From NCBI GenBank assembly GCA_017643395.1, contig JAEPNP010000001.1, positions 331,806-395,805 of the forward strand: 64,000 nt of DNA, given 5' to 3'. The notes under the pieces were generated by a model that saw only the letters and a list, made by a program, of their open reading frames with translations, made no database searches and was not told where the DNA came from. Position 1 is the stretch's first letter; each line of letters starts with the position of its first letter. The stretch is from Rhodothermales bacterium (GTDB taxonomy: Bacteria > Bacteroidota > Rhodothermia > Rhodothermales > UBA10348). Position numbers and translations under genes: made by a program. Positions 24,869 to 29,597 of this stretch are shown here, one piece after another.

Positions 24869-25380
24869 AGTCGGCTCTGTGGGTCCTGCTGCTGCTGCCT
24901 GGAGTTGTCCGGGCGCAGGTGCCGGCGTGGGCCGCGGAAGAGCTGTCGCGCGTAGTCGGCGTTTGGGAAGCTGATAACAGCGCGTACGTGAGCGAGACAG
25001 AGCCAGACCTGGCGTATCGACAGGAATGGCGGGCCGGGCCCGGAGGACACTCCGCCACCGGTCGTCTGTACGGGATGCTTCACGGGGAGGAAACCGGCGA
25101 GTACTGGCAATTCCGGCTGTTCTGGGACCCCGGCACCGAACGCCTTAGACTCATGCAGTGGAGTGCCTCCGGCATTGTGGGTGACGGTTTGTTCACGCAA
25201 ACCGGTCCCGACCGCAACGAGGTGCTGCAAACGTTCACGAGCCAGGACGGCACCAGCTGGATGCAGGGACATCGCAACCGCAACGAGTCCGACGACCAGC
25301 ACATCGGCACCTCGTACGGCGTGTCTGAAGACGGCGCCTGGACCAGAGAGCGCACCTATACCTGGAGGCGCATTCGCTAG
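24865..25380 (+). CDS. Secreted hypothetical protein
   Basis: 171 aa, ATG overlapping the hydrolase stop (ATGA). Signal peptide MKSALWVLLLLPGVVRAQ. The mature part begins ELSRVVGVWEADN and continues with repeated strand-like segments ([58 protein letters not shown]), the pattern of a small lipocalin-like or DUF1579-like barrel. That family call is tentative. Operon context with the hydrolase suggests a role in the same exported process. Its TAG stop shares CTAG with the converging gene. Confidence 0.7.
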   Translation: MKSALWVLLLLPGVVRAQVPAWAAEELSRVVGVWEADNSAYVSETEPDLAYRQEWRAGPGGHSATGRLYGMLHGEETGEYWQFRLFWDPGTERLRLMQWSASGIVGDGLFTQTGPDRNEVLQTFTSQDGTSWMQGHRNRNESDDQHIGTSYGVSEDGAWTRERTYTWRRIR

Positions 25381-25967
25381 CGTTTACGCTTGGGCCACTC
25401 GTTGGCCCGCTGGTTGACCGCGGCCGCATCGGCAATCTCAGTGATGCGTCGTTCCCGCGTGGCGGCGCGTTTTGCGTTTACCAGCCACTCCAGCATGGCG
25501 CGCCTGGACCACCTCGGGAAGGCGAGCCAATGCCCTTCCGCTCCCGGCCGGGCATCAAAAGCGGCCTGCAGATCCGGGGGTACCACCAGGGCTTCGACCG
25601 CGTCCAACGCGCTCCATGAGCCGTCCTCCCGGGCCGCCTCCACCTTGGCGATTCCGCTCGGGTGCATGAGGCCCGCCTGCATCATCCTGTCCACCCGGGC
25701 CTTGTTGATCGCGGACCAGTTGCTGCCGGGTTTTCGGGGAGCGAGCCAAAGCATGGTCCGCTCGTCATCCAGCTTGCGAGGGAGGCTGTCGATCCATCCG
25801 AAACACACTGCTTCTTCCACAATGTCCTCCATGTCCAGCCGGGGTTTGCCCGATGCCTTCAAGTGGTTGATGAGCCACAGCCCATCCGGGCGCGCATGAT
25901 GTTCCAGAAGCCACGCCCGCCACTCGGCCCGGGACAACGGATGGAAGGAGTTTTCGGGAGGGTTCAT
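25377..25967 (-). CDS. YdeI/OmpD-associated family protein
   Basis: 196 aa from ATG 25967 ([20 protein letters not shown]). The segment [17 protein letters not shown] followed by [23 protein letters not shown] is the family hallmark, and a C-terminal DUF1905-type basic tail ([24 protein letters not shown]) is present. Members are cytoplasmic proteins; the E. coli homologue is linked to resistance against cationic peptides, but the biochemical role is unsettled. The open frame extends far upstream across the tRNA and repeats, which argues against any longer start. Confidence 0.88.
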
Positions 25968-26030
25968 GGATGGTCGATGAGGTCCTGCCAAGGTACCGAA
26001 CCTCCCCCAGGGCATCGAGTATGAGCGCGC

Positions 26031-26116
<86 letters not shown>

Positions 26117-26270
26117 AACAAGTTTGGCCAGGCGCGAAGCGCTCCAGCGTGGGGCCGGCGCCGAGCCGAGCTTGCTCGAGCGAGCGTGCCGGCAGCGCCG
26201 CCCAGCCCCGAGGCGATCTCGCCCGGCGGTGCCGCCCCCGCAGCCCCGCAACCGCGAGTCCGGCGCTGGA

Positions 26271-26398
26271 GTGGAATCGCACCCCCATATTCCACACCGA
26301 CCGCCCCCTGCCCGGCGCGTAGGTCGAATACGCCGCCGTATTACACCTGGCAAGCCCCCGGGCCGGCCCAAACATGGAATAGCGGCCCCACATTTCAC
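26271..26398. repeat. 128-nt structured repeat, copy 1
   Basis: By hand alignment it differs from copy 2 at about 12 of 128 positions with no gaps. It begins with the inverted repeat GTGGAAT-N11-ATTCCAC (26271-26295), contains a perfect AATACG-CCGC-CGTATT palindrome (26327-26342 region), and ends with a decayed version of the closing palindrome (ATGGAATA ... CATTTCAC). Orientation and role are unknown. Confidence 0.85.
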
Positions 26399-26582
26399 TC
26401 CGCGCGGCGCCACCTCCGCTTCCCGTCCGGCGTGGCGCCCAACCGGGAGCCCGGGGCCGGGGCCCGGGGCATTCCCGCCCGGCAGTGCCGCCCCTGGCAG
26501 AGGCGACCTCGCCCAAGAGGGCCGAGCCTACGCATAGCCAGGCCTCCCGCAGCCCCAGCAGCCCCCGCGGCCCGCCGCTCGA

Positions 26583-26710
26583 GTGGAATCGCACCCCCAT
26601 ATTCCACCCCGACCGGCCCCTGCCTGGCGCCGAAGTCGAATAGGCCGCCGTATTACACCTGGCAAGCCCCCGGGCCGGCCCAATCGTGGAATAGTGGCCC
26701 CATATTCCAC
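26583..26710. repeat. 128-nt structured repeat, copy 2
   Basis: It lies 312 nt from copy 1. The opening palindrome GTGGAAT-N11-ATTCCAC is identical. The central palindrome is broken by one base (AATAGG). The closing palindrome GTGGAATA-N9-TATTCCAC (26686-26710) is perfect, so the unit is bounded by GTGGAAT at one end and ATTCCAC at the other and can fold as two terminal hairpins or one long-range stem. Confidence 0.85.
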
Positions 26711-26821
26711 TGCGCCGCGCCTGCTTCGCTCCGAAGCCCAACCGGCTGGCACTATGGGCCGTTCGACCCTACGAAGCGGCCAGGGCGGACAGTAGCAGGT
26801 ACATTTGCACCATGCGCCGAT

Positions 26822-26930: not shown

Positions 26931-29597
26931 ATGAGACGCACTCTCCTCATTCTCCTGCTCCTGATGGGGTTGACCGCCGTCGCCCCCGCACAGGAACTGC
27001 TTGTCGACCTCAATACCACCCCGCGCGGCCTCTATCCCAAGAACCTGCTGAAGGGCCCTGGCGGCACGGCGTTCTTTACCGGCTGGACGGAGGAATCCGG
27101 CCGGGAGCCCTGGGTCTTTGAGGGTGGCGTAATCCGGCAACTCGTCGATCTCACACCAGGCACCGAGGGCTCCAATCTCACCTTTCACGCCGCCAACGAC
27201 TCGCTGGTCTTTTTTACGAGAGACGACGCAGAACTGTGGGTTTCGGACGGCCACGAGACCAGACTGGTTACGACGTCGGAGCGCATCATTCCCTCAGGCG
27301 TGTTCCGAGACCACTTCGTCTTCGTCGATCGCGGGGATGCGTATCGCGTTCGAGCCACTGACGGTTCAAACACAGTGACCCTCTTCACCGGCGGCTACAC
27401 CAGAGGACTGTATGACTGGAATGGAGGGCCGCTGGTAGCAAACGACCGGTTGTACTTCTTCGGCATCGACAACCAGGGGATCGGGATGGGGCTCTGGTCG
27501 ACGGATCTGACTGAGGCCGCCACGTACCATGGGCTGGTGCAGGCCCCGGGTTCGGATGCCGTCGTTTTCGGAGACCGCATCATCTACGGCGGATGGTCAC
27601 AGGAATTGGGCGATGAGGTCTGGACGGTAAACCTCGACGGCACAAACAACCAGCGGCAGTCGGAGCTGGGTGTCAACGCCAGGTGGGAAGACATCGGCGA
27701 CTTCGTAGTAGGATCCGAGGAGGTGTTCTTCCTGGCGCAGGACCTGTCCACGGGGTGGGAGCTGTTCAGGACGGACGGCACTGCGGCAGGAACGGTGCTG
27801 GTGAAGGACCTGGCTCCCGGCCTGCTCGACGCCTACCCCGAAGACAAACACGCCTTCCGCGACGGTATCCTTTTCACGGCCTGGACGCCGGAGTTCGGCA
27901 AGGAGCTGTGGTTCTCGAACGGGGATCCCGACGGCACGATCATGCTTGGCGACATCGAGCCGGGTCGTTCGGGCAGCGACCCGGTCACACTCGCCGTGCG
28001 AGGAAATCGGGCCTGGTTCTGCGCGGTCACCGAGGCCACGGGGATGGAGCTCTGGGTGACCGACGGCACGCCGGAAGGCACACGCCTGGTCTCCGACTTT
28101 GCCCCCGGAGCTGCATCTTCGACGCCGGAATGGGTCGCACTCCTGGACGACTCCCTCCTGATTTCGGCTTCGACCCCCGATTCGGGGCAGCAGCTTCGAA
28201 GCCTCGACCTGACCGGCGAATCCATTGCCACGGTCGGCACCCGGATCAGCTCGGGTTCACTGGGTTCGTTTCCCGAGCATTTCGCGCGATGGGGCGAGCA
28301 GGTGGTCTTTGCAGCCAACTCAGGTCTTGCGGGCGCCCAGATGTGGCAGACCGACGGCACGCCATCCGGTACCCGACAGCTGGCTCAGTCTGACGGGACA
28401 GGAATATTCGAGACCCGGGTCGACGGGGACCGTCTCCACTGGAGAACCCTGCGAGGCGTCTGGGTGCTGAACGCAGGCGAGTCGGTTGCCACGCGTGTCT
28501 TTGAGGGCAACCTGAACAGCATGGACGTCGCGGCCGGCATGGTGGCGGGTCAGGTCTGGAGAGACGGCGCTTTCCTGATTGACGCCGAAACGGGAGAAGT
28601 GCTGGTGCGAGTGCCCGATGCCTGGAACTATGCGCTGACGGACGACGGACAGTTTTTCACGGACGACGACCACAAGCTCTATCGGTACACGCGTCAGGAG
28701 GGGCTCTCCGTCGTCATGGAGATTCCGGCCGGTGAGCGAATCCGCGATCTGCACGGTGCCGGTTCGGCTGCGTTCTTTCGACTCCTCGATGGCAACGACG
28801 GCAAGTTGTGGATGGTGGACGGCAGTGGCGCCCGCGCCATCTCCGAGCAACCACTCTCCACCACGTCTCCACTGCTGACGTTCAGGGGAGAAAGCGTCTT
28901 CCGGGGATGGCAAGGTCTCTATATCACCGATTCCGCTGCGGAATCGTTCGACATCCTCGCCTCAGGGGACTACTTCTTTCGGGAGGCGCTGGTGCACAAT
29001 GACCGATTCTACTATTCCGCCTCGACGCGCCACGGGTTTGGTGTGTACGAGTCCGACGGGACGCGCACGGGCAGCCGGATCCTGGCCGGCTTCGATCAGC
29101 CCGTGGAGGTGCTGACGGTCGTCGGAGACGAGATTCTTGTGGCCGAGCGCCTGGAGCCCTACGGAACCCAGCTCTGGGTGACCGGAGCACATCGAAACAC
29201 GCGTCGACTGGGCGCCGCGCTGCCAGGCGCAACCGTCGACGAAGCAGCCACTACAGACCGCGCCATCCTCTTCCGCAACGGCCATCCCGAGTCGGGCTCC
29301 GAACCGTTCGTCCTCAGCGCTACGCTCGTGCAACCAGAGCCGGACCCCATCGCCCCTGAACTCCCGGAGGACGTGGGCATCCCGTACCCGAATCCCGCTA
29401 CCAAGGTGGCTCAGGTGCGCGCGCCGCTTGGCGCGACCGTTCAGGTCTTCGACATGCTGGGGCGCCTCCGCGGCTCCTATACGGGCGATGGGGAACTGGT
29501 CGATCTGAACGCCGCCTCCAGGCCGGCCGGAGTCTACATGGTCCGCACCTCCCTGGACGGGTTCGTGCGCACTTCTGCCCTCACCATCGTGCGCTAA
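26931..29597 (+). CDS. Secreted ELWxxDGT-repeat protein with T9SS type A sorting domain
   Basis: 888 aa. Signal peptide MRRTLLILLLLMGLTAVAPAQ. Multiple ELWxxDGT-type repeats are visible (ELWVSDGH, ELFRTDGTAAGTVLVKDL, ELWFSNGDPDGTIML, ELWVTDGTPEGTRLV, MWQTDGTPSGTRQL, LWVTGAH), expected to form a beta-propeller-like solenoid. The last 80 residues (from IPYPNPATKVAQVRAPLG, with MLGRLRGSY and RPAGVYMVRT) are a type A T9SS C-terminal domain that directs export across the outer membrane and surface attachment. ELWxxDGT proteins are seen in Bacteroidota and myxobacteria without a proven function. It starts 1 nt after an orphan tail of the same kind. No T9SS machinery gene is in the window. Confidence 0.92.
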   Translation: MRRTLLILLLLMGLTAVAPAQELLVDLNTTPRGLYPKNLLKGPGGTAFFTGWTEESGREPWVFEGGVIRQLVDLTPGTEGSNLTFHAANDSLVFFTRDDAELWVSDGHETRLVTTSERIIPSGVFRDHFVFVDRGDAYRVRATDGSNTVTLFTGGYTRGLYDWNGGPLVANDRLYFFGIDNQGIGMGLWSTDLTEAATYHGLVQAPGSDAVVFGDRIIYGGWSQELGDEVWTVNLDGTNNQRQSELGVNARWEDIGDFVVGSEEVFFLAQDLSTGWELFRTDGTAAGTVLVKDLAPGLLDAYPEDKHAFRDGILFTAWTPEFGKELWFSNGDPDGTIMLGDIEPGRSGSDPVTLAVRGNRAWFCAVTEATGMELWVTDGTPEGTRLVSDFAPGAASSTPEWVALLDDSLLISASTPDSGQQLRSLDLTGESIATVGTRISSGSLGSFPEHFARWGEQVVFAANSGLAGAQMWQTDGTPSGTRQLAQSDGTGIFETRVDGDRLHWRTLRGVWVLNAGESVATRVFEGNLNSMDVAAGMVAGQVWRDGAFLIDAETGEVLVRVPDAWNYALTDDGQFFTDDDHKLYRYTRQEGLSVVMEIPAGERIRDLHGAGSAAFFRLLDGNDGKLWMVDGSGARAISEQPLSTTSPLLTFRGESVFRGWQGLYITDSAAESFDILASGDYFFREALVHNDRFYYSASTRHGFGVYESDGTRTGSRILAGFDQPVEVLTVVGDEILVAERLEPYGTQLWVTGAHRNTRRLGAALPGATVDEAATTDRAILFRNGHPESGSEPFVLSATLVQPEPDPIAPELPEDVGIPYPNPATKVAQVRAPLGATVQVFDMLGRLRGSYTGDGELVDLNAASRPAGVYMVRTSLDGFVRTSALTIVR

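Follow-up and report, generated by a model that had tools for sequence, protein, structure and literature searches.

What are the two similar 128-nt repeats that lie beside a tRNA gene in this Rhodothermales genome, and what might they be for? They were found in a 64-kb stretch of DNA (the window, C1:331806-395805 of the source genome G000, which comprises 4.5 Mb in 21 contigs and is 98% complete), and a sequence-only reading had proposed either a non-autonomous mobile repeat of the REP or MITE type or a structured RNA, located after a tRNA as a common integration site. The comparisons described below make it probable, with a good deal of room for doubt, that these repeats are arrays in which a dimeric, sequence-specific protein would bind duplex DNA at sites lined up on one face of the helix, and that they have spread, at least in part, by way of small dispersed repeats.

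Array design and recurrence

Both copies were confirmed at 128 nt each, 312 nt apart, and neither they nor their parts are assigned to a strand. Copy 1 (26271-26398) is a row of three palindromes: site 1 (26271-26295), GTGGAAT-N11-ATTCCAC with perfect arms; a 27-nt spacer (26296-26322); the middle site 2 (26323-26346), GTCGAAT..ATTACAC with an N10 core; a second 27-nt spacer (26347-26373); and site 3 (26374-26398), ATGGAAT..ATTTCAC with N11. Copy 2 (26583-26710) follows the same plan, with perfect arms and N11 in sites 1 (26583-26607) and 3 (26686-26710) and N10 in the middle site 2 (26635-26658). This regular spacing of three sites (N11, N10, N11, with starts 52 and 51 nt apart) had no place in the earlier reading of the copies, most other details of which held. 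The hand count of about 12 differences was reproduced (12: seven in spacers, three in palindrome cores and two in arms), and the palindromes described as intact were so: the opening one in both copies, the central AATACG-CCGC-CGTATT in copy 1 and the closing one in copy 2. The boundaries given for the copies, GTGGAAT and ATTCCAC, apply except at the end of copy 1, which reads ATTTCAC. The flanks are partly repeated, as had been stated: the aligned block extends over 144 nt at 90% identity (direct repeat 26260-26403, partner 26572-26715), and the left flank 26200-26238 recurs at 26456-26494 (79%).

The gap holding the copies is bordered on the left by a minus-strand gene with an OmdA (PF13376) domain (25377-25967), followed by tRNA-Ser(TGA) on the plus strand (26031-26116), and on the right by a plus-strand gene of 888 aa (26931-29597) which starts 220 nt beyond copy 2. 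A 454-aa open frame on the minus strand (window 25377-26741) crosses both copies; codon usage calls a gene at 25377-25967 only, so the rest of the frame looks spurious. The right-hand gene gave only repeat-type matches over part of the protein (29-45% identity) in an orthologue search of nine relatives, and the window locus is therefore not comparable by position.

The idea of dispersed copies was borne out for the design and not for the 128-nt unit: BLASTN with the 128-nt copy against the source genome returned the two window copies only, while the three-palindrome design was found at dozens of intergenic places, so that the family shows by its arms and its lattice. In the window, perfect TGGAATN11ATTCCA matched three times, always inside the two copies, and with up to three mismatches it matched 15 times versus a shuffle mean of 12.9, i.e. 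no excess. In the whole source genome, the exact pattern GTGGAATN{7,14}ATTCCAC was found 19 times (reversed pattern, 0) and TGGAATN11ATTCCA with at most one mismatch 158 times (reversed, 2). The latter figure is five times the next highest among 60 genomes (source plus relatives), the range outside the source being 0-32 and that of the controls 0-9. The reversed-pattern control is imperfect, and many relatives lacking arrays also exceed it (e.g. 32 vs. 7 in G053 and 27 vs. 4 in G054); single sites alone thus prove little, and the argument rests on the arrays. An exact pattern for the two outer sites was abandoned as too strict (2 places in the source genome, 0 in 40 relatives).

Forty-four source-genome loci with arrays of this first arm class were read, each being a row of sites, usually three, with differing spacers; some arrays had 4-10 units. 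A 400-kb sample of contig C1 (20 stretches, 20 kb each; reversed control 0) contained five arrays, from which about 56 arrays per genome are extrapolated (95% interval 11-113). The loci are partly alike (178 BLASTN matches at E < 1e-4 among the 44 loci, the 120 listed being mostly short and at 67-80%), and no common unit was found outside the arrays, where the flanks are simple and CGG-rich.

The array can be summarized as three 24-25 nt palindromes, GTGGAAT-N10/11-ATTCCAC, with centres about 51.5 bp apart; each site is made up of a variable G/C-rich core between two half-sites in inverted orientation, whose consensus is A-N-GTGGAAT and whose centres lie 18 bp apart. When spacing was left free in 45 source-genome sources (the window, 24 other loci and L085-L104), 111 of the 212 site pairs within 160 bp fell at 51-53 bp and 59 at 102.5-105 bp, and 2 of 94 strong sites stood alone; these loci were picked for holding palindromes, and the figures describe arrays, not the genome. 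Among 40 triples, N10 was found in 20 middle sites vs. 2 of 80 outer sites (Fisher p 7e-10). Such special treatment of the middle unit is not expected of a plain tandem repeat. The 52/51 pattern was also present in one array of G010 (Rhodothermales bacterium RX1_metabat.bin.83) and in arrays of a second arm class from the source genome and a relative, G002.

This second class, AGGTTNAAT-N11-ATTNAACCT with at most two mismatches, occurred 36 times in the source genome and 5 times in G002 (reversed, 0 in both), and 0-3 times in the other 25 family genomes (controls 0-2). Nineteen second-class arrays of 3 to 10 units were detected in the 20 loci scanned (15 from the source genome, 4 from G002 and 1 from G010), and 57 of their 61 gaps measured 51-52 bp, gaps of 50-54 bp being accepted. 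The classes differ at position 3, where first-class sites have G and second-class sites T in both half-sites; at position 4, second-class sites are often mispaired. The second-class half-sites are mixed (GTTNAAT-like, the commonest being GTTGAAT, GTTCAAT, GTTCCAT and GTTCAAA), and palindromes hybrid between the two classes exist. This second class suggests that one protein family includes variants of different specificity. Near-identical units of 51-52 bp were also seen in second-class arrays: 10 at L178:1186-1690 (C1:1437685), 7 at L179:1045-1385 and 5 at L184:619-852.

Arm variation and the hairpin question

Local tandem copies of arrays, present at many source-genome loci, allowed the parts of the array to be compared. 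In nine tandem-copy pairs from eight loci, differences were found at 9 of 378 arm positions (2.4%), 16 of 292 core positions and 74 of 488 spacer positions (15.2%), so that arms differed six times less than spacers (p 1.5e-11); L101 was dropped for its other spacing, and L011, L089 and L103, which also have repeated arrays, were not entered. Arms and cores thus change more slowly than spacers, a sign of selection on the arms. The conservation of the arms, like the anticorrelation of left and right arms (r -0.23, 141 units), is partly biased, since the loci were found through their palindromes; as a counterweight, acceptance of the second tandem copy tolerated many mismatches. Within an array, the units are related and not independent.

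Tandem copies at so many loci, together with simple CGG-rich flanks, are what functionless tandem-repeat drift of G/C-rich intergenic DNA would leave behind. Drift should not, however, retain the same arms and lattice with differing spacers across two genera and two arm classes, nor make arms differ six times less than spacers, and it is considered a most improbable explanation.

If the palindromes acted as hairpins, changes in one arm should be compensated in the other. No arm pair exceeded z 1.5 in the 115 N11 units examined, which came from the first array of each of 44 loci (N10 units excluded). Pair 14/32 comprised 76 G-C, 18 G-A and 16 T-C combinations, and 0 T-A vs. 2.5 expected; double changes that keep pairing were found in four units at pair 17/29 (z 1.5) and in one at pair 11/35. 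The cores were anti-complementary (z -4.0 and -3.1), tending to runs of G or of C unable to pair. The near-independent variation of the two arms speaks against a conserved hairpin or RNA, and the uncompensated arm changes and unpairable cores point to protein contacts on duplex DNA.

An RNA structure, e.g. a hairpin at mRNA 3' ends or a terminator, remains a very unlikely reading. The palindromes can fold (mean z -0.9 for the 25-nt units), and convergent gaps outnumber divergent ones around the arrays (14:5 vs. 11:13 in the sample, p 0.12; 18:7 with the second class included, p 0.08), a difference which is not significant. Spacer folding, in contrast, was near random (mean z -0.26 vs. -0.09 in flank controls), and the Rfam scan of the window matched nothing but the tRNA; the structured RNA proposed for the window copies was accordingly dropped. 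One source-genome spacer pair reached z 2.4, and the spacers between sites in G010 appeared partly palindromic by eye. A promoter operator was also considered and rejected: divergent gaps were few, though the difference was not significant.

Genomic position, range and dispersal

Arrays did not overlap predicted genes at any of 53 loci (43 in the source genome, 10 in relatives) or at any of 13 second-class source loci, whereas the intergenic share of a 464-kb sample was 7.7%; genes were called with our own codon-usage script, trained on the source genome. The genes flanking the arrays (87 proteins) had little in common: among the 25 most frequent of 157 Pfam families, Por_Secre_tail occurred in 7 proteins and the others in 3 or fewer, no transposase was present, and Phage_integrase occurred in 2. 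A tRNA shared the array's own gap at 5 of 53 loci scanned for tRNAs, all in the source genome (L068, L070, L071 and L073, in 20-kb stretches, were left out), roughly as large gaps would give. The tRNA as an integration site thus found no support, and the one beside the window arrays looks incidental. At two loci, a homologous gene (58.7% aa), a tRNA-Val(CAC) and an array follow one another, the array being first-class in the source genome (L043:1678-2811) and second-class in G002 (L187:1-1005); by reckoning, 12-15% of large source-genome gaps hold an array, and this shared position is therefore not significant. Another homologous gene (68% aa), presumably phospholipase D-like by its motif, lies next to an array in each of two genera, though not on the same side of it (L088:5001-5749 and G010 L109:1913-2767).

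Among the genomes searched, few had arrays. The first-class two-site pattern, searched in 27 family genomes, gave 43 matches in the source genome, 9 in G001 (Bacteroidota bacterium OFTM201), 6 in G010 and 0 in the other 24 (controls 0). A generalised two-site pattern, searched in 114 genomes of the order Rhodothermales, gave 42 in the source genome, 10 in G010, 6 in G001, 1 in G002 and 0 elsewhere (controls 0): array carriers were 4 of 114, all in the family of the source genome. In a sample of 394 phylum genomes the first-class pattern was found in the source genome and G010, with one match each in G191 and G326, taken as coincidence. These two-site matches (L115 and L116), like L127 and L131 below, come from unrelated genomes and lie in AT-rich DNA; they may reflect a coding motif, possibly a histidine-kinase-like one.

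A contig scan of named genomes, which may omit records near the source genome, gave 19 stretches: 7 from OFTM201, 2 from RX1 bin.83 and 10 single matches elsewhere. These ten were rejected, eight having 12-16 of 42 arm mismatches and two (L127 and L131, which lie within open frames 1041 and 946 aa long) having 8 of 42, for which a coding coincidence was assumed. Stop-to-stop frames of 954 and 754 aa also run through the array at the two G010 loci; they were taken as spurious, the DNA being 68-69% G+C, and the gene caller placed no gene over the array at the one of the two put to it (G010 C14, L111/L139). Viral contigs gave 8 matches, the best triples with 13-15 of 42 arm mismatches; phage sequences searched with the window region and plasmid sequences searched with the left part of the G001 unit described below gave no match.

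In G001, a sister genome, the array can form part of a larger dispersed repeat. A unit of about 323 bp, with its left edge at CTAG-CAGYCTGTCGGACTTA and its right edge just past the last array site, had seven matches (the query itself and six others, these 85-97% alike) in different flanks. Six of the seven hold an array, the remaining one being cut by a contig end. Both edges are present in four copies, of which C83, C107 and C106 contain a three-site array; the array of the fourth, C40, is shortened, and another partial left edge follows this copy directly. The other copies, C84, C69 and C143, run into contig ends. CTAG was found before all 5 left edges and after 5 of the 6 right edges, the exception being CTGG at C84 (L156). 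The four copies with both edges have it on both sides, as a target site duplication might leave it, but CTAG is also the normal start of a spacer. The array was seen at the right end of the repeat at L153 (1504-1821), L155, L158 and L159, and an apparent insertion-sequence transposase, presumably of the IS1380 family, starts directly after the CTAG edge of one repeat (L105:1679-1944). At least one array subfamily has thus spread recently. The source genome gave one weak 35-nt match to this unit, and its arrays are therefore not copies of it.

Could the arrays then be a selfish miniature element, MITE- or REP-like, whose palindromes are recognised by a mobilising transposase or recombinase and which does nothing for the host? 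The G001 unit with its seven matches in different flanks and CTAG at its edges would suit such an element, as would local tandem copies, patchy presence and intergenic position. Decayed copies of such an element, however, should not keep arms and spacing at source-genome loci that are otherwise only partly alike. No Y1_Tnp domain was detected in the source genome, no transposase was among the 25 most frequent flanking Pfam families, and the G001 unit had no terminal inverted repeats by eye (left end CAGTCTGTCGG, right end the last array site), its right CTAG being ambiguous as noted. No target site duplication was seen beside the window copies. The selfish reading is given a limited chance; it overlaps with the protein-site reading on the matter of spread, and the two do not exclude each other. 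Of the mobile repeat first proposed for this locus, dispersal in kind is retained, with a G001 unit that is MITE-like in size and dispersal but shows no terminal inverted repeats by eye, and the REP type is not (no Y1 domain in the source genome, no significant pair compensation).

Proposed function and relation to known systems

Under the preferred protein-site reading, each array would offer three double-stranded sites, with one dimer occupying each pair of inverted half-sites. With a site every 51.5-52 bp, or 5 helical turns, the dimers would all be bound on one face of the DNA, where they could contact one another or connect the array with a second one. Protein binding, the dimeric state and cooperative assembly as the reason for the spacing are what we infer from this layout. 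A dimeric protein with sites helix-phased in threes would explain the arms, the spacing, the middle site and the independent change of the two arms; arrival as small mobile units, perhaps followed by local tandem duplication, would explain the patchy presence. A selfish repeat would account equally well for the patchiness and the local duplication. The bound array may have a role in chromosome organisation, recombination or local control. A bolder version, which we regard as rather unlikely in full, would be a chromosome-wide nucleoprotein system: a dimeric protein with GTGGAAT and GTTNAAT-like specificity variants would assemble on helically phased three-site intergenic platforms, and tie distant loci together (as anchor or insulator), the platforms being spread as small mobile units and kept by selection.

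Dispersed bacterial palindromes are commonly interpreted as hairpins that RAYT transposases mobilise. The arrays are a palindrome family in a genome without a detected RAYT transposase domain, with arms lacking significant pair compensation, and a protein complex of defined form is implied by sites set exactly five turns apart and by the shorter middle one. The protein, once found, would reveal either a novel mode of bacterial chromosome organisation or a small mobile element of a new type. Full-text searches of open-access papers brought up no description of such arrays in this lineage.

One likeness is to REP/BIME and REPIN elements, which are also extragenic and in many copies. A genome with such elements carries numerous short palindromes outside its genes, frequently grouped at regular intervals, and IHF, gyrase and DNA polymerase I are among the proteins bound by REP/BIME (PMC2817692; PMC3116915). 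In contrast to REP stems, with their complementary stem changes, the arrays showed no significant arm pair compensation (115 first-class units), and three sites on a 52-bp lattice, a shorter middle site and two arm classes are features of the arrays. The Y1 (RAYT) transposase domain, PF01797, had 0 matches in the source genome (98% complete, 21 contigs), while 5 of 14 control genomes matched. The unit consensus begins with GTGGAAT and not with the REP tag GTAG or CGTC, although GTGG is mentioned as a GTAG variant in one REP family (PMC3733652).

MITEs such as RUP and Correia (PMC2817692) and the enterobacterial RU elements (PMC2759123) resemble the arrays in being small, dispersed and intergenic, and the G001 unit of about 323 bp behaves in this way. 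Unlike them, that unit had no terminal inverted repeats by eye, and the source arrays have no common unit outside the arrays.

A further analogy is with the res site of Tn3, for which PMC9943657 gives 114 bp, three dimer-binding sites and inner spacers of unequal length. By that analogy, the three dyad, dimer-type sites over 128 bp, with a middle site of other length in half the triples, might form a recombination or synapsis site working like that of a serine resolvase. Such a role seems unlikely: about 56 arrays per genome, dispersed in dozens and some with 4-10 units, differ from one res per transposon. CRISPR arrays offer a likeness in the palindromic repeats of about 25 nt and the 27-nt spacers, but here the spacers within several arrays are alike, and arrays of two to ten units stand at dozens of loci.
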